Origin: a candidate division LCP-89 bacterium B3_LCP
Lineage (GTDB): Bacteria; Electryoneota; B3-LCP
Length of the DNA stretch: 64,000 nucleotides
NCBI GenBank assembly: GCA_005223185.1
Contig: NJBN01000006.1
Location: 199,022 to 263,021 of the forward strand
Direction of reading: 5' to 3'
Shown here: piece after piece, positions 39,203 to 48,002 of the stretch
Layout: each line of letters starts with the position of its first letter
Position numbering within the stretch: the first letter of the stretch is position 1
The notes under the pieces: generated by a model
Databases searched by the model: none
Seen by the model: only the letters and a program-made list of their open reading frames with translations
Told to the model about the DNA's origin: nothing
Made by a program: the position numbers and the translations under genes

Positions 39203-39232
39203 TTGACTTATTATTCTTATGCACATGATAAT
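39203..39232 (+). promoter_or_regulatory. Possible promoter of the five-gene secreted-protein operon
   Basis: TTGACT (39203-39208), an 18-bp spacer and GATAAT (39227-39232) lie about 20 bp before the start codon at 39255, in the 255-bp gap between the divergent fba and secreted-protein operons. I see nothing else in that gap. Confidence 0.5.
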
Positions 39233-39254
39233 CAACAGTATGGAGGTATCAATC

Positions 39255-41120
39255 ATGCAGTATCGTAATTTATCGAGGTTTTTCATGCACAAATTTCATA
39301 CTTCTCTGCTAATAATTCTGTTCTGGCTCACCAGTGGTAATGCTCAACCTACTATCTTCTGGTCGCAAAATATCGGAGGTACTTTAGATGAACAAGGTAA
39401 TTGTGTCCGACAGACAGATGATGGCGGATTCATTGTTACGGGGAAATCTGGACCTCCAGGTACAGGCGCGCCCGATTTAGTCCTGATTAAAACTGACTAT
39501 CAGGGAACGACCGAATGGACTCAAATGTACGGCGGCCACCAAGGCGATTGCGGCTACTGGGTTGAACAAACAAACGATGGCGGGTACATAATTGTTGGAT
39601 CAGCAGATGAAGGGATGTATGAACTCTACGGTGATTTGTACGTACTCAGAACAGACGCGCTGGGAGACACGATCTGGACGCGCAAGTATAACTGGGGTGA
39701 AATTGACCGCGGATTTGGCGTCGTGGAAACAGAAGAAGGAGATTTCGTTATTGCTGGCATCTATGATGGCGCATTTACCGCGCCTAATGGGGATGTTTTC
39801 CTGATGAAATTAGATAGTGATGGCGGAACTCTTTGGTTACAAACTTATAACTATCACGGACGTGATTGTGGATACGCTCTAGCTCAAACAGATGACGGCG
39901 GATTCATCATCTCAGGAGCCACGAATGAGGATCCATACGCTCCCTACGGTACCATCTTCATCATAAAAACTGACGGTGATGGGAATACCCTCTGGATGAA
40001 CGAATACGGAAACGGTCTGGGTTTGAGCGTTTTACAGGCGTCTGACGGTAATTACGTTGTCGGCGGTTGGACGGGAGGACCTGTATATGGTTCAGAAGAC
40101 CTCTTCATGCTGAAGGTTGATCCCGATGGTTTAGAGATATGGAAGGACTTTTGGGGTACACCCAATTCGGACAGTGGACATGGAGTTGTTGAATCAACCG
40201 ATGGTGGATATTTGTTGGTTGGTAGAGCCTTTGATGCATGGGTCATTTGTCATGAATTGTATATGGTGAGGACAGACACTGAAGGAAACACCATCGGCAC
40301 CTGGACATATTCCGGAGGTAGTTATGATCACGCAAGCTGCGTAACCCGGACCCAGGATGGAAACTATGTCCTTACCGGTAGTACTGTAGGTCTGGGATAT
40401 GGTGACATACTTCTATTACATCTGGATGATAACTTGGGTTCAGTGGTGGTGAAACTGACGCCACACGAACAACCGATCCAGATACCTGCGAGTGGCGGTT
40501 CCTTTGATTACGATTTCGAACTGGCCAATAACAGTGACACCAACTACACCGTTGACGTTTTGCTCTATGCTGTTCGGGATTGGTACTTAGGTTCGTACAA
40601 TGCTGCTTTCAGAACGGGGATAAGTTTGCCTTCGGGTGAGACAATTACTAGAAATGATTTAAGTCAACGCATACCTTCCAGTCTTCCCGGTGATGGATAT
40701 AATTACTGCGCCTGGATAACGGACTCCAACACTCAGCAACTGCTGTCCCTGGATTGTTTCCCCTTTGAGAAAATGGAAACCGGGGGTGATGGTTTGGCTG
40801 AAGCTGACTGGCTACTGATGGGATGGGATATAAAAACTGAGTCTGTAGCTGGTTCGAATTTAGTCGAGCTTAATTCAGCTTCTCCCAATCCCTTCAATCC
40901 TTCGACACTCATCAGTTACAAATTACCGGCTATGAGCTGCATATCCCTAAATGTATATGATATATCCGGCCGTCTGGTGTCAGAACTTGCCAACGGCTGG
41001 CGGGATGCGGGTGTGCATGAGGTGACGTTCGATGCTTCTGGTTTGACATCTGGTATCTATATCTACCGGTTAAAATCCGGTGATCATACAGTATCTGGCA
41101 AGATGGTGCTGATGAAATAA
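39255..41120 (+). CDS. Secreted seven-repeat beta-propeller-like protein with T9SS sorting domain
   Basis: 621 residues from the ATG at 39255, preceded by GGAGG; the longer frame from 39219 is disfavoured. A signal peptide ends near SGNAQ. Seven repeats of the type QTDDGGF-I-V-x-G (residues about 45-400: QTDDGGFIVTG, QTNDGGYIIVG, ETEEGDFVIAG, QTDDGGFIISG, QASDGNYVVGG, ESTDGGYLLVG, RTQDGNYVLTG) suggest a seven-bladed propeller. An IPASGGSFDY domain (about 413-510) and a sorting domain with SPNPFNP, ending KMVLMK, follow. First gene of a five-gene operon. A close analogue lies at 61907-63772. Binding function is unknown. Confidence 0.85.
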   Translation: MQYRNLSRFFMHKFHTSLLIILFWLTSGNAQPTIFWSQNIGGTLDEQGNCVRQTDDGGFIVTGKSGPPGTGAPDLVLIKTDYQGTTEWTQMYGGHQGDCGYWVEQTNDGGYIIVGSADEGMYELYGDLYVLRTDALGDTIWTRKYNWGEIDRGFGVVETEEGDFVIAGIYDGAFTAPNGDVFLMKLDSDGGTLWLQTYNYHGRDCGYALAQTDDGGFIISGATNEDPYAPYGTIFIIKTDGDGNTLWMNEYGNGLGLSVLQASDGNYVVGGWTGGPVYGSEDLFMLKVDPDGLEIWKDFWGTPNSDSGHGVVESTDGGYLLVGRAFDAWVICHELYMVRTDTEGNTIGTWTYSGGSYDHASCVTRTQDGNYVLTGSTVGLGYGDILLLHLDDNLGSVVVKLTPHEQPIQIPASGGSFDYDFELANNSDTNYTVDVLLYAVRDWYLGSYNAAFRTGISLPSGETITRNDLSQRIPSSLPGDGYNYCAWITDSNTQQLLSLDCFPFEKMETGGDGLAEADWLLMGWDIKTESVAGSNLVELNSASPNPFNPSTLISYKLPAMSCISLNVYDISGRLVSELANGWRDAGVHEVTFDASGLTSGIYIYRLKSGDHTVSGKMVLMK

Positions 41121-41352
41121 TAGATATACGCAAAGGAGATTACCATGGCTAAGAAAATGTTAATGACTTTGCTTGCGGGAATGATTGTAATTGCAGGGTT
41201 ATGTCATGCTGACACCCTCCTCGTTCCTAGCCAATACCCAACCATTCAGGCGGGAATTAACGCTTCGAACGATGGGGATACAGTTCTGGTTTCATCCGGG
41301 ACCTATACAGAAAATATCGATTTTCGGGGTAAGGAAATCGTCGTAAAGAGCG
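41102..41352 (+). repeat. Direct repeat copy A: operon junction and 5' end of a beta-helix gene
   Basis: This 251-bp stretch, from the last codons of one secreted-protein gene through the ribosome-binding site into the signal peptide and first domain of the next, is almost identical to 44461-44711 (about nine mismatches by hand alignment). Confidence 0.85.
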
Positions 41353-42980
41353 AACAGGGCGCTGATTTCACCGTTATCGATGGGGATCAGTACGGGAGCG
41401 TGGTGACATTCGAGAGTGGAGAGACTACGAACTCCGTACTGGATGGATTTACAGTGGAGAATGGAATGGGTGGGGGTAGTTATCCGAATTATAGGGGCGG
41501 AGGAATAAATTGCACCAATTCATCCTCTCCAACTATTACGAATAATATCTTTACCAGGAATATATCCCCCACAGCAGGTGGCGCAATCGCCTGTCTCAAC
41601 TACTCTGACGCAATCATTACAAACAATATAATTTACGGGAATACCGCCTCCAATGGTGGTGGAATTTACGGCAAGGATTGCTTCATGACCATCATGAACA
41701 ATACGATAACTGGGAATAGTGCCAGCAGTTTTGGTGGCGGGATCTATGGTTACTACGCAGGTGCAATAGTCAGTAACAATGTCATCGAAGGGAATACTGC
41801 TTCTTATAAAGGCGGTGGGATGGCAATCCTCGAAGCAACGCATACCCCCTACCCTATCTGGGAAATCAGTAACAACATAATCGCGAATAACTGGGGCCGC
41901 ACTGCCGGTGGTGGAATATCCATCCAATGCTCCTTCCCTCCCCCAGGTCATAACATCATAAACAATACAATCACCGAGAACAGTGCTGATCAGGGTGGTG
42001 CGGTCGCCCTCTTTTTAAGTGCTTACCCGGTCATCACAAATTCGATCCTTTGGGACAACAGCGCACCGGAGATATACGAATCAACGGGAGGAGGATACGC
42101 GACGGTTAATTATAGCAACGTCACAGGTGGTTGGACAGGAACGGGAAATATCGATGACGATCCATTATTCATCTATCCAGACCAGAGCGACTACCGCCTA
42201 CAGTGGGGTTCCCCCTGCATCGACAGGGGAGATCCGGTCTCACCTCTGGATCCAGATGGTACTATCTGCGACATGGGCTATTCGTTTTACGATCAGAGCA
42301 TCCCTGTACGCATCTTGATGACTCCGCACGATGTGCCAATAAAAATCCCGGCAAGTGGAAGTAGCTTTAACTATACCATCTGGGCTACTAACATAGATCC
42401 TGTATCTCAACTGGTCAATCTCTGGTGTGATGCCACACTACCAGATGGGAGTATTTTCGGGCCCGTTTTGGGGCCAGTTTCGATAACGATGGATTCAGCT
42501 CTGACCATCAGCCGTGAGAGAACACAGATCGTTCCAGCAGGGGCGCCGATGGGTAACTACACATATAATGCTTATGCAACTGTGGGAGCTGATACTTCAT
42601 CTGATGTGTTTACCTTCGTTAAGTTAGGATCGGTTGGGTTGGATGGATTAGCGGGATGGTTTAATACGGGGGAAGAGTTCGGTGAAGTTGGCGGGGGAAG
42701 CACCCCCGCTCTACAGGAAGATTTCGCCTTGTTAGGGGCATTTCCGAATCCATTCAATCCCATAACAGTTATCAGTTACAAGCTGCAAGATGCAAGTCTT
42801 GTAAAACTATCGGTTTATGATATTTCCGGCCGTCTGGTAACAAAACTTGCCAACGGTTGGCGGGATGCGGGTGTGCATGAGGTGACGTTCGATGCTTCTG
42901 GTTTGACATCTGGCATCTATATCTACCGATTAAAATCCGGTGATCATGTAGCATCCGGTAAGATGGTGTTGATGAAATAG
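41145..42980 (+). CDS. Secreted right-handed beta-helix protein with T9SS sorting domain
   Basis: 611 residues. A signal peptide (to about 22) is followed by LVPSQYPTIQAGINASNDGD and by ENIDFRGKEIVVKS, the opening of pectate-lyase-like parallel beta-helices. Rungs of the form SPTITNNIFTRNI and GGGIYG run to about 330 (NTASNGGGIYGKDCF, NSASSFGGGIYGYYA). A choice-of-anchor-Q-like ending (SPCIDRGDPVSPLDPDGT) precedes an IPASGSSFNY domain and a PNPFNP sorting domain. No catalytic residues of polysaccharide lyases are evident; adhesin-like or glycan-binding roles are possible. It shares nearly identical DNA segments with the genes at 39255 and 44504. Confidence 0.87.
   Translation: MAKKMLMTLLAGMIVIAGLCHADTLLVPSQYPTIQAGINASNDGDTVLVSSGTYTENIDFRGKEIVVKSEQGADFTVIDGDQYGSVVTFESGETTNSVLDGFTVENGMGGGSYPNYRGGGINCTNSSSPTITNNIFTRNISPTAGGAIACLNYSDAIITNNIIYGNTASNGGGIYGKDCFMTIMNNTITGNSASSFGGGIYGYYAGAIVSNNVIEGNTASYKGGGMAILEATHTPYPIWEISNNIIANNWGRTAGGGISIQCSFPPPGHNIINNTITENSADQGGAVALFLSAYPVITNSILWDNSAPEIYESTGGGYATVNYSNVTGGWTGTGNIDDDPLFIYPDQSDYRLQWGSPCIDRGDPVSPLDPDGTICDMGYSFYDQSIPVRILMTPHDVPIKIPASGSSFNYTIWATNIDPVSQLVNLWCDATLPDGSIFGPVLGPVSITMDSALTISRERTQIVPAGAPMGNYTYNAYATVGADTSSDVFTFVKLGSVGLDGLAGWFNTGEEFGEVGGGSTPALQEDFALLGAFPNPFNPITVISYKLQDASLVKLSVYDISGRLVTKLANGWRDAGVHEVTFDASGLTSGIYIYRLKSGDHVASGKMVLMK
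42531..42637 (+). repeat. Direct repeat copy A: identical 107-bp segment before the sorting domain
   Basis: Identical, base for base, to 45881-45987; similarity continues with few differences to about 42775. It encodes the end of the IPAxGGSFDF domain and its linker. Confidence 0.85.
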
Positions 42981-43036: not shown

Positions 43037-44479
43037 ATGTTTCAGATCAAATTATCAATTGTGGCTTCTGCATTGTTTGTAGTTTTAGCAGGGGCAATTT
43101 CCTACGCGCAGACGACAATCAGCGGCGTGCAGTCGGGCACGCTGGGACCTGGACAATATCTCGTGGTCGGTGAAGTTACCGTTGGCGGCCAAGATACCCT
43201 GACCATTATGCCGGGCACTGAGTTTCTGCATAATGGAAACCACCAATGGAAAATTTACGGACTCTTCATCGCCGAAGGCATGGAAAATGACAGTATCAGC
43301 TTTGTCCGACAGAATCCCGTTGAAAACCATCGATGGGGTGGACTTCGTTTCCAGTCCGGCGCCTCAGCCAACAGCACCATCGATTATGTAATAATCGACA
43401 ACTGCAAGAATGAGTTCAATTTTAATTACGACCTCGGCGGCGGTATTTATACCGATGGTGTTCCGATTACAGTCACCAATTCCAGAATTTCGGAATGCGA
43501 TAATTATTGGGGTGGCGGCGGAGTCTATGCAAGTTCAGCAAATATAATCATCGAAAATTGTATTATAGTGGACTGTGAAGCTTTCGACGACGGTGACGAA
43601 GGCGGTAACGGCGGCGGTATATACCTTTACAACTGCGGCGATGCACAGATTTTAAACAACATAATTGCCCGCAATATCGCAACAGGAGGTTGAGGCAGCT
43701 GTGGAGGCGGCGGGATCCGCTGCGAAAACTCAGTTGCTTTGATATCTCATAACCTGATTTATGACAATATTTCCGTACTTAACGGTGCTGGAATATTTGC
43801 TACTTATTCGTCAACTGTAACGATTATAAATAATACTGTTGTTAATAACGAATGTACCTCAACCTCAACTGAAGCAAAAGGTGGCGGTATTTGCGTTGGA
43901 ACTGGAAATTCTTCCTTTTCTGGACAAAACAACATTATTTACTATAATTCATCTTATAATGATCCTGAAATTTACGGAACCGTGCAACTTACATATTCAT
44001 GCGTTTCAACCGGCTTAGCTGGAACCGGCAATATTTCCAATAGTCCGGAGTTCCTCGATTTAATAGGCGGCGATTTGAATTTGCATGAAACATCACCCTG
44101 TATCGATGCAGGTGATCCGAATAGTCCGCTTGATCCTGATGGAACTACTGCAGATATGGGAGCACTCTTCTATGATCATGGTTTAGGTGTCAACAGCGAC
44201 AATCCGCTAATCCAACCAAGTACTATGCGATTGAGCGCATACCCCAATCCCTTCAATCCTGTTGCGGTCATCAGATACCAATTACCGGTTATGAGCTACG
44301 TATCCCTAATTGTATATGACATTTCCGGTCGATTGGTAACAGAACTTGCCAACGGTTGGCAGGATACGGGGGAGCATGAAGCGATATTCGACGGATCGGA
44401 TTTAGCATCCGGTATTTATATTTACAGGCTTTCGTCCGGTGATCAGGCAATATCAGGTAAGACGGTGCTGATGAAATAA
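43037..44479 (+). CDS. Secreted beta-helix protein interrupted by one in-frame TGA (probable recoding)
   Basis: 480 residues if the TGA at 43691-43693 (codon 219) is read through. Residues 1-218 contain a signal peptide (to about 25), a start unlike the other helix proteins (SGVQSGTLGPGQYLVVGEVT) and beta-helix rungs (NSRISECDNYWGGGGVY, NNIIARNIATGG). The TGA is followed in the same frame, with no further stop, by GSCGGGIRCENS, more rungs, SPCIDAGDPNSPLDPDG and a sorting domain with YPNPFNP ending KTVLMK. Without readthrough, a 218-residue protein lacking the sorting domain would be made. It lacks the IPAxGGSFDF domain. The stop sits in GGTTGAGGCAGC, shared with the gene at 46437. A simple nonsense mutation is the alternative. 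Confidence 0.75.
43691..43723 (+). promoter_or_regulatory. In-frame TGA followed by a SECIS-like hairpin (copy A)
   Basis: TGA at 43691 is followed after 13 nt by a five-pair stem GCGGC (43707-43711) / GCTGC (43719-43723, one G-U) with the loop GGGATCC. Loop position (18 nt after the TGA) and size fit general rules for bacterial SECIS elements, but the loop lacks the GU seen in the E. coli fdhF element. A competing longer fold, GCAGC with GCTGC, is possible. Confidence 0.4.
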
Positions 44480-44711
44480 TAAATATACACAAAGGAGATT
44501 ACCATGGCTAAGAAAATGTTAATGACTTTGCTTGCGGGAATGATTGTAATTGCAGGGTTATGTCATGCTGACACCCTCCTCGTTCCCAGCCAATACCCAA
44601 CCATTCAGGCGGGAATTAACGCTTCGAACGATGGGGATACAGTTCTGGTTTCCCCCGAAACCTATATAGAAAATATCGATTTTCGGGGTAAGGAAATCGT
44701 CGTAAAGAGCG
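44461..44711 (+). repeat. Direct repeat copy B: operon junction and 5' end of a beta-helix gene
   Basis: Partner of 41102-41352 at an offset of 3359 bp. Confidence 0.85.
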
Positions 44712-46330
44712 CATCCGGGCCGGTATCCACCGTCATAGACGGAAACCAGGCTGGAAGAGTGGTAACGTTTGAGAGTGGGGAGAGTGTGAACGCCGTATTG
44801 GAAGGATTTACGGTGATGAACGGTGCGGTAAACGGCAGCGGAGGCGGCATCAGATGTACCAACTCATCCAACCCGACCATCGCAAATAACATTATTACGA
44901 GGAACTCGTCCTCAGGGTTCAGTACTAAAGGAGGTGGGATCGGTTGCGACGATTACTCCGACCCGATCATTATAAACAATACAATTACCATGAATACGGC
45001 TAACGACGGAGGTGGAATCGGTTTCGAAGATTGCTTTGTAACCATCACGAATAACACCATCACCAGGAACACCGCCAGCCACGGCGGCGGGATCTACGGC
45101 TACTACGCCGGTGCGCATGTTACTGATAATGTAATCTCAGAGAATTCGGCTTCCAGCTGGGGAGGCGGGTTGGCTGTCCTCGAAGCAACGCACTATTCTC
45201 CGAACCCCATCTGGGAAATCTGTAACAACCTTATCGCGAATAATGATGGTAGCAGCGACGGCGGCGGGTTATCTATCCAATGCTCCTGGCCCGACGGCCA
45301 TAACATCACGAACAACACAATCACCGGGAACACTGCCGACAACGGTGGCGCGATTGCTCTCTGGCTAACAGCAAACCCGGTTATTACAAATACGATCCTT
45401 TGGGGCAACACTGCACCGGAGATATATATCTCTTCGGGAGGAGGAAATCCCACCGTCAATTATAGCAACGTCATGGGCGGCTGGCCGGGAACAGGAAACA
45501 TCGATGACGATCCCTTATTCGTCTATCCAGACCAGAGCGATTACCGCTTGCACTGGGGTTCCCCCTGTATCGATACGGGAGACCCGGTTTCACCTCTGGA
45601 TCCGGATGCCACCATCTGCGATATGGGAGCATTTTTTTACGACCAGAGTATTCCCGTTCGCATCCTGCTGAATCCGCACGAGGCACCCATCGAAATTCCA
45701 GCTGGTGGCGGCAGCTTTGACTACACCATCCAGGCGACCTATATTGACCCAATATCCCAAATAATTAGCGCTTGGTGCGATGTTACACTTCCCACAGGAA
45801 GTATCTATGGTCCAGTTTTAGGACCGGTTTCCATCACGATGGATTCAGCTCAAACCATAAGCCGTGTAAGAACACAGACCGTTCCAGCAGGGGCGCCGAT
45901 GGGTAACTACACATATAATGCTTATGCAACTGTGGGAGCTGATACTTCATCTGATGTGTTTACCTTCGTTAAGTTAGGATCGGTTGGATTGGATGGATTA
46001 GCGGGATGGTTTAATACGGGGGAAGAGTTCGGTGAAGTTGGCGAGGGAAGCACCCCTGCTCTACAGGAAAATTTCGCCTTGTTGGGCGCATTTCCGAATC
46101 CTTTCAATCCCACAACAGTTATTAGTTTCGATTTGCGAGTTGCGAGTTTGGTAAAGTTCACGGTTTATGACATTTCGGGACGAAGGGTTGCTGAATTAGT
46201 AGATGGTTGGCGGGATGTTGGGGTGCATGAGGTTACCTGGAATGCGTCAGAAATGGCATCGGGCATTTATGTTTACCGTCTGACGGCAGGTGAGTTTGCC
46301 GCATCTGGCAAGATGGTGTTGATTAAATGA
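44504..46330 (+). CDS. Secreted right-handed beta-helix protein with T9SS sorting domain (paralogue)
   Basis: 608 residues. The signal peptide and first ~60 residues are almost identical to the gene at 41145. Rungs such as SNPTIANNIITRNSS, KGGGIGCDDYSDPIIINNTI and NTASHGGGIYGYYA run to about 320, then SPCIDTGDPVSPLDPDAT, an IPAGGGSFDY domain (about 395-500) and a sorting domain (FPNPFNP, ending KMVLIK). Where the two TGA-containing paralogues have their stop, this protein has SGFSTKGGGIGC, so the recoded position aligns with a Phe here. Last part of the duplicated block; the sorting domain itself differs from that of 41145. Confidence 0.87.
   Translation: MAKKMLMTLLAGMIVIAGLCHADTLLVPSQYPTIQAGINASNDGDTVLVSPETYIENIDFRGKEIVVKSASGPVSTVIDGNQAGRVVTFESGESVNAVLEGFTVMNGAVNGSGGGIRCTNSSNPTIANNIITRNSSSGFSTKGGGIGCDDYSDPIIINNTITMNTANDGGGIGFEDCFVTITNNTITRNTASHGGGIYGYYAGAHVTDNVISENSASSWGGGLAVLEATHYSPNPIWEICNNLIANNDGSSDGGGLSIQCSWPDGHNITNNTITGNTADNGGAIALWLTANPVITNTILWGNTAPEIYISSGGGNPTVNYSNVMGGWPGTGNIDDDPLFVYPDQSDYRLHWGSPCIDTGDPVSPLDPDATICDMGAFFYDQSIPVRILLNPHEAPIEIPAGGGSFDYTIQATYIDPISQIISAWCDVTLPTGSIYGPVLGPVSITMDSAQTISRVRTQTVPAGAPMGNYTYNAYATVGADTSSDVFTFVKLGSVGLDGLAGWFNTGEEFGEVGEGSTPALQENFALLGAFPNPFNPTTVISFDLRVASLVKFTVYDISGRRVAELVDGWRDVGVHEVTWNASEMASGIYVYRLTAGEFAASGKMVLIK
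45881..45987 (+). repeat. Direct repeat copy B: identical 107-bp segment before the sorting domain
   Basis: Partner of 42531-42637; see there. Confidence 0.85.
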
Positions 46331-46436
46331 TTTAGAGCTTATAAGGCATGTGATCTAAATCAACGATGTTACGCCGATACTTGGATAGATTTACGGGGAT
46401 AATTTGATAAACAACAAAAAGAAAGGAAGAGTTCTT

Positions 46437-48002
46437 ATGAAACGACTTAGTACTGCTGTATGCGTTATTATGCTCCTGGCAATGGCGGCATACGGCGCTA
46501 CAATCTTAGTTCCCGATCAGTACCCCACCATACAGGCAGGGATTAATGCTGCCAGTGCGGGAGATACCGTCTTAGTCTCAGATGGTGACTGGACCGGTCC
46601 CGGGAACAGAGGCCTGGACTTCGGTGGACGTGCCATTGTGGTCATGTCCGCAAACGGCCCTGAAAACTGCGTGATCGACTGCCAGAGCGGCGACCGCGGA
46701 TTCTACTTCCGTTCAGGTGAAACCGCTTCATCGGTTTTATACGGATTCACAATCGTGAATGGATATATGACGCAGGGTGGCGGGATTCACATCGCCAACT
46801 CGAGTCCAACCATCGAGCGCTGCATCGTCTTCGATAATGGTGCTTCATACGGTGGCGGATTCTACATCGCCAACAGCAGCCCGGTTATCGAACACTGCAC
46901 GATCATCGAGAATTCAGCCACTAACGGTGGAGCTGTCTATTCCACCAACTCCAATCCGGACATCAATAGCTGCGTAGTGGCGGATAATACCGCCTCTGGT
47001 TGAGGCAGCCTCTGCAGTGGGATCTACTGCGTATCAGGCAACCCGACCATTACTTACAATGACATCAGCAATTCCGGTGGTAACTTCTATGGTGGTGCAA
47101 CACCTGCAGGAGCCGGGACTATTACCGGTACCAACTACAATGGAGATCCGTGCGATCAGTACAACAATATCTTCTTGGGTCCGCAATTCCCATACGGTGG
47201 TGGCTTTAACGTTAAACCCAGTTCACCTTGTATAGATGCCGGTGACCCAGCCCATCCCAACGATCCTGATGGAACAATCGCCGACCAAGGAGCTCTTCCG
47301 ATTGATCAAAACAATCCCACTATGGCGGTTACCATCAATCTAACTCCAGCACAATCAACAATCTATGTACTTCCCGGTGGTAGTTCCTTCGATTTCTCAA
47401 TTGCTATCGAGAACGTCACTACCAACACTCAGACCGTGGACGTCTGGACTATGGCGCAGCTTCCTAACGGTGCAATGCGCGGTCCCATTATTTTACGGGA
47501 AGATATTGAATTGCCAGCCGGTATGGTCATGAGCCGCGATTTGAATCAGTATGTCCCAGGGTCAGCGCCCGGTGGTTCATACACTTACTTTGGGTTTGTC
47601 GGCATCTATCCAGGCGGTGAGGATGACCTGGATGGATTTAACTTCCTCAAATTTGGGGACGGTGATGGCGCCGGTAACGCCATGCCCGGCTGGTCGTTTG
47701 ATGGCTGGGATACTGAACCGGTATCATCCGTATTGCCGACAGAAGTAACCCTGTCGTCAGCCTATCCGAATCCCTTCAACCCACAGACGACCCTGTCTTT
47801 CTCTCTGCCAGAGGCAGGACAGGTTACTCTGATTGTCTATGACGTATCAGGACGCGAGGTTGCCAGACTATACGACGGTTGGTATGCTGCTGGTGAACAT
47901 CAGGCAGTATTCAATGGCGGTTATCTTGCCAGCGGTCTTTACATAGCTAAATTGACTTCCGCAAACAGCCAATTGACTCAGAAGTTGATGTTGGTGAAGT
48001 GA
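46437..48002 (+). CDS. Secreted beta-helix protein interrupted by one in-frame TGA (probable recoding, second case)
   Basis: 521 residues if the TGA at 47001-47003 (codon 189) is read. The ATG at 46437 is preceded by AAGGAAG; the frame opens earlier at a TTG. A signal peptide (to about 20), LVPDQYPTIQAGINAASAGD and rungs (SSPTIERCIVFDNGASYGGGF, SNPDINSCVVADNTASG) precede the TGA. The same frame continues without another stop through GSLCSGIYCVSGNPTI, SPCIDAGDPAHPNDPDG, a VLPGGSSFDFS domain and a sorting domain (YPNPFNP, ending KLMLVK). The interruption occurs at the same helix position and in the same 12-mer as in the gene at 43037. Last gene of the operon; a terminator follows. Confidence 0.75.
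47001..47030 (+). promoter_or_regulatory. In-frame TGA followed by a SECIS-like hairpin (copy B)
   Basis: TGA at 47001 is followed after 10 nt by a perfect five-pair stem GCAGT (47014-47018) / ACTGC (47026-47030) with the loop GGGATCT, 15 nt after the TGA. Compared with copy A the stem changes on both sides while the loop is conserved except for its last base. A competing GCAG/CTGC hairpin lies nearer the TGA. Confidence 0.4.

Follow-up and report, generated by a model that had tools for sequence, protein, structure and literature searches.

Two paralogous genes of candidate division LCP-89 bacterium B3_LCP each carry one in-frame TGA upstream of a C-terminal sorting domain. This raises the question of whether the genes are decayed copies, or intact genes in which UGA is read as an amino acid. 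Both lie in a 64,000-nt stretch of genomic DNA, referred to here as the window. The relevant features, all on the plus strand, are listed below.

43037 to 44479, plus strand: predicted type-B selenoprotein gene, 480 aa with the TGA read through
43691 to 43693, plus strand: in-frame TGA of the type-B gene, predicted Sec219, in U-G-S-C
43707 to 43723, plus strand: SECIS-type hairpin of the type-B gene, GCGGCGG-GAU-CCGCUGC, triloop at 43714 to 43716, 20 nt between TGA and triloop
44240 to 44464, plus strand: T9SS sorting domain of the type-B gene, in the product only upon TGA read-through
46437 to 48002, plus strand: predicted type-A selenoprotein gene, 521 aa with the TGA read through, β-helix and T9SS sorting domain
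47001 to 47003, plus strand: in-frame TGA of the type-A gene, predicted Sec189, in U-G-S-L-C
47013 to 47031, plus strand: SECIS-type hairpin of the type-A gene, UGCAGUGG-GAU-CUACUGCG, triloop at 47021 to 47023, 17 nt between TGA and triloop
47763 to 47990, plus strand: T9SS sorting domain of the type-A gene, in the product only upon TGA read-through
48000 to 48002, plus strand: ordinary TGA terminator of the type-A gene
39219 to 41120, plus strand: neighbouring T9SS-tailed gene without internal TGA
41145 to 42980, plus strand: neighbouring T9SS-tailed gene without internal TGA, a family relative that matches the β-helix alignment
44504 to 46330, plus strand: β-helix/T9SS paralogue between the two selenoprotein genes, without internal TGA

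Both frames are as the initial annotation described them: each contains a single internal TGA (43691 and 47001), placed within the 12-mer GGTTGAGGCAGC, and stays open to the sorting domain. Ribosome-binding-site-like sequences, AAGGAG and AAGGAAG, precede the ATGs at 43037 and 46437, respectively. The type-B gene terminates with TAA and the type-A gene with TGA, so UGA also acts as a terminator inside the latter gene. The protein flanks around the two TGAs align as proposed, with the first corrected to IATGG-TGA-GSCGGGGIRC. The two sites are not fully equivalent: one subfamily spaces Sec and Cys as U-x-x-C, the other as U-x-x-x-C. The type-B protein comprises a signal-peptide-like N-terminus, a right-handed β-helix (Pfam Beta_helix, aa 113-299) and the T9SS sorting domain. 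The sorting domains of the two proteins score 38.8 and 40 bits with TIGR04183 (cut-off 23), and 35 and 37.7 bits with PF18962 (cut-off 27). AlphaFold2 models the type-B read-through protein as one continuous β-helix with Sec219 in a high-confidence region (mean pLDDT 82). The type-A model is weaker (74.4), yet residue 189 is still flanked on either side by helix strands. A fold search of the PDB gave only weak β-helix matches, plus matches to T9SS C-terminal domains. Rfam returned no match within the 64,000-nt window, and neither did a plasmid search.

Across the 3.79 Mb genome, the 12-mer GGTTGAGGCAGC is present five times and its reversed control not once. The window has two of these copies, contig C14 another two and contig C2 the fifth, and all are in the same frame of paralogous β-helix genes that run on to a T9SS sorting domain. 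A type-A protein profile recovered a fourth copy in the same genome, together with copies carrying exactly one TGA in four genomes of the same family and in one genome of another family. The motifs SG-U-[GA]xxC[SG]GI[YR] (type A) and U-[GSDA]xCGGxGIR (type B), searched in all fetched DNA without requiring a TGA, gave 53 matches: 44 distinct TGA genes and nine others. The TGA form is found in same-family genomes and in two other families, in independent assemblies, and the proteins of this family are about 35-60% identical. Two of the nine other matches (L076 and L351) look like real β-helix proteins with Ser at the site and without the GGGATC loop, and the remainder look like unrelated frames. 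The search for TGA, TGC or TGG proposed in the initial annotation thus yielded 44 TGA genes in this genome and relatives, and none of the 53 matches has TAA, TAG, Cys or Trp at the β-helix site. Alignments A8 and A9 show the Sec as invariant, together with a Cys three residues after it in type B and four residues after it in type A; alignment A1, in which the Sec of type B is misplaced, was left out of the site counts. A nearby Cys is absent from two members of the own-genome inventory (L078 minus strand 6231 and L068 minus strand 10999).

Of the best 80 loci in a wider scan of genome contigs, those with the TGA form came exclusively from Ca. Zixiibacteriota SURF_9, LCP-89 Meg19_1012_Bin_459 and Ca. 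Tariuqbacter arcticus; their sequences correspond to G002, G001 and G010, respectively, already in the genome set. Among the same 80 loci, β-helix relatives in other phyla have no TGA at the site. Upstream and downstream of the TGA alike, dN is about 0.30-0.59, dS ranges from about 1.7 to saturated, and third positions change most. The protein is thus constrained equally on both sides, and the window genes are not decayed.

A hairpin with a GAU loop follows the TGA by 16-21 nt across sites, and by 16-20 nt in the genes of this genome. Both window genes agree with the published bSECIS model on all four of its points. Its energy limit, applied to the bare perfect stem, is passed by 43 of the 56 sites, both window genes included. 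All but two of the 18 own-genome genes have a perfect stem of at least 6 bp closed on GAU; a stem mismatch is found in two members (L068 plus strand 12143 and L025 minus strand 13853). Among hairpin-followed TGAs in open frames, the GAT triloop occurs 15 times and the next commonest 4 times. At 25 sites picked without a hairpin criterion, covariation was 0.614 against 0.229 for shuffled alignments (0 of 500 shuffles), with changes on both sides in all seven stem pairs. An earlier 22-site set, which was partly hairpin-selected, agreed. The GGG-ATC loop codons are fixed in 44/44 TGA genes, GGG being 12% of the Gly codons in these genes. For those of the 44 that the hairpin model retrieved, the hairpins are not independent evidence, and this count is partly selected; sites fetched by protein similarity likewise have fixed GGG-ATC.

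The selA, selB, selC and selD genes that the initial annotation proposed to look for were all found. The genome encodes two SelA (44% identical), two SelB (38% identical) and two tRNA-Sec above the cut-off, both with a UCA anticodon and about 64% identical to each other, as well as one SelD, whose gene has an in-frame TGA of its own. The combination of selA, selB, selC (UCA) and selD by which bacterial selenoprotein synthesis is recognized is therefore present. From the conserved TGA, the covarying hairpin, the silent-site conservation and the complete machinery, we infer that the window genes are very probably intact and encode exported β-helix selenoproteins through SelB-dependent Sec insertion at UGA, the reading that the initial annotation had named first. 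The ribosome would insert Sec, brought as Sec-tRNA(UCA) by SelB, at the internal UGA. The hairpin 17 or 20 nt 3' of the UGA, with its conserved GAU loop, would act as the bacterial SECIS that recruits SelB. Read-through would produce one continuous right-handed β-helix, a turn of which would carry a Sec-x-x-Cys pair in type B and a Sec-x-x-x-Cys pair in type A. It would also add the C-terminal domain, and judging from this sorting domain the protein should reach the cell surface by way of the type IX secretion system. If translation ended at the UGA, the product would be a partial helix lacking the sorting domain. The exposed Sec-Cys pair suggests a surface thiol/selenol redox, peroxide or metal-handling role.

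Other readings of the shared TGA were weighed. Gene conversion might have spread one stop among decaying copies, or a sequencing or assembly error might have produced the TGA, as could be argued from the 12 bp context common to five own-genome copies and from a family member at C16:55057 (L120 minus strand 1494) in which the TGA, hairpin and downstream frame are present and the 5' frame is disrupted. However, the TGA is retained in 44 diverged genes of independent assemblies, no TAA or TAG form accompanies it, and purifying selection downstream equals that upstream. Shared decay, which the initial annotation already thought unlikely, or error is thus extremely improbable, and is effectively refuted by the conservation of the TGA, short of one artefact common to independent assemblies. 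UGA is a leaky stop, and a Trp might be tolerated in the turn of a β-helix, which would suit a reading of UGA as tryptophan, or leaky read-through by a normal tRNA, giving GWGS. This option, left open by the initial annotation, finds no TGG form among the motif matches. In the stretches sampled for frames and tRNAs, totalling about 1.42 Mb, the UCA-anticodon tRNAs are tRNA-Sec only, and the single tRNA-Trp seen carries a CCA anticodon. Moreover, UGA terminates 12 of the 73 long coding frames sampled in 800 kb, and simple read-through would not predict a covarying SECIS-type hairpin, so we consider the tryptophan reading very improbable. When 617 kb were screened, blind to hairpins, for coding frames interrupted by TGA, the β-helix family made up most of the hits, alongside a few unrelated exported proteins, and in the further 800 kb interrupted frames were at noise level (17 TGA, 30 TAA and 7 TAG). 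These noise-level counts and the 12 terminating TGAs indicate that UGA is not freely used as a sense codon in this genome, in keeping with the earlier view that global reassignment is unlikely.

Sec might also be inserted while the purpose of the UGA is regulatory, with selenium supply deciding between a short partial helix and export of the complete protein. The position of the TGA upstream of the sorting domain would allow this, as would the in vivo recoding efficiency of 30-40% and the need for sufficient selenium that PMC4513850 gives for the system studied there. The invariant Cys three or four residues from the Sec argues instead for a chemical role of Sec itself. We regard such a switch as unlikely.

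Under the selenocysteine reading, the genome holds about 18 predicted selenoprotein genes plus selD. Fourteen are β-helix genes, of which two lie in the window, three on C14, one each on C2, C7 and C13, four on C16 and two on C18. The other members are one FG-GAP gene, one short T9SS gene and two AhpC-TSA/thioredoxin-like genes, in all of which the TGA is also followed by a GAU hairpin; the latter two genes are located near one selB. When one of the thioredoxin-like genes is aligned with solved thioredoxin-family proteins, its TGA falls on the first Cys of their CxxC. This catalytic-Cys placement, in a gene that shares the GAU hairpin, is the strongest single indication of Sec. Because the β-helix site has no Cys form in the fetched DNA, a Sec/Cys pair of homologues is provided only by this gene.

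The FG-GAP/T9SS gene lies near selD and a tRNA-Sec, with its TGA in SY[GA]-U-C before the GAU hairpin. TGA loci of this type are found on C18 (L030 minus strand 11194) and in two other genomes, G004 (L271 plus strand 3015 and 4654) and G005 (L243 minus strand 2198), and these genes are candidates for a second exported selenoprotein family. The short T9SS-tailed protein (L066 minus strand 17006, on C16) was seen in one copy, with its TGA in FLKYA-U-DCDHPGSGW. One locus on C12 (L140 minus strand 16130), with a TGA between coding stretches of 226 and 557 codons, was excluded from the inventory as its hairpin is outside the GAU class; it is possibly a pseudogene or another Sec gene.

The window genes resemble known SelB-dependent bSECIS selenoproteins of bacteria in their in-frame UGA, a hairpin 16-21 nt downstream with a G starting the loop, and the presence of SelA, SelB, SelD and tRNA-Sec. 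They differ from them in the host fold, a T9SS-tailed β-helix, in the lack of any Cys homologue found for the site, and in one GAU loop common to about 18 genes of one genome. The type-B protein has the same U-G-S-C tetrapeptide as the UGSC-containing protein (NF041046) listed in a May 2026 review (PMC13188914), which gave no match for helix, T9SS or sorting domain. NF041046 is absent from the NCBIfam matches of the window proteins (E up to 1), which comprise the T9SS tail and β-helix repeats instead; the likeness is thus a coincidence of motif. The Sec-x-x-Cys pair is shared with thioredoxin-like and AhpC-TSA selenoproteins, although the fold is unrelated and the pair of the window proteins sits in a solenoid turn.

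The deep-Sep paper (PMC12013277) lists candidate division LCP-89 bacterium B3_LCP (GCA_005223185.1; genome size 3,794,239) with 4 known and 0 new selenoprotein genes, as against about 18 plus selD predicted here, a comparison by counts alone. Its authors acknowledge that a family may be screened out when it has no Cys homologues (PMC12013277). A search of the open-licence literature gave nothing relevant on β-helix or T9SS selenoproteins. The exported β-helix selenoprotein family of LCP-89, an uncultured group, is thus apparently unreported, its novelty being provisional on a search of that scope. It would add an exported solenoid-fold class to the selenoprotein catalogue and expose a blind spot of current predictors, which can drop families without Cys homologues. 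Dozens of genes split or truncated by standard annotation would be whole.

Two Sec machineries of different ancestry appear, from their sequences, to coexist in this genome. Among 41 genomes, two selA are present in six same-family genomes and in G010 and G015, two selB in the same set minus G003, where one was found; the six same-family genomes also have two tRNA-Sec each. The other genomes have one copy or none at the thresholds applied. In quick trees, one SelB and one SelA group with the single-copy set of a sister family, and the other SelB lies on long branches, with weak deep placement. All eight genomes with the second, divergent selA hold verified TGA-type β-helix genes, which the hairpin-model search found in 0 of 16 other relatives. 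Weak matches to this model in genomes without the second machinery included none with an in-frame TGA before the hairpin. Since the eight genomes form one clade, they probably represent one evolutionary event rather than eight independent ones. Tentatively, and with no great confidence, we propose that the divergent SelA/SelB/tRNA-Sec set originated together with the expanded exported β-helix selenoproteins and is dedicated and partitioned to them, which would give each bacterium two partly orthogonal systems. Since SelB and tRNA-Sec each come in two unlike forms in this clade, the partition of Sec insertion within one cell becomes testable.

Two Sec machineries in one genome are also known from Photobacterium profundum 3TCK, which has two complete sel operons (PMC5330540). 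In LCP-89, by contrast, the sel genes are dispersed, the copies are 38% (SelB) and 44% (SelA) identical, and the second set is shared across three families of one clade, as is the selenoprotein expansion. The two tRNA-Sec classes (loci L006, L007 and relatives) coexist, the second resembling tRNA-Sec of other families in the phylum. The divergent SelB of G002 (L180) has an open frame of 1061 aa against the usual 640, possibly a fusion or a missed start.

A strict model in which the GAU loop belongs to the second SelB was dropped, as G022, a single-machinery genome among the 16 other relatives, has a thioredoxin-like gene with a GAU hairpin, and as the loops of selD hairpins vary. Across the selD loci compared (L006, L236, L237, L245, L271, L261, L185, L191 and L194), the loop is GGA in the family of the window, GAU in G010 and AGUUG in another family, hinting at a drift of SECIS recognition within the phylum.
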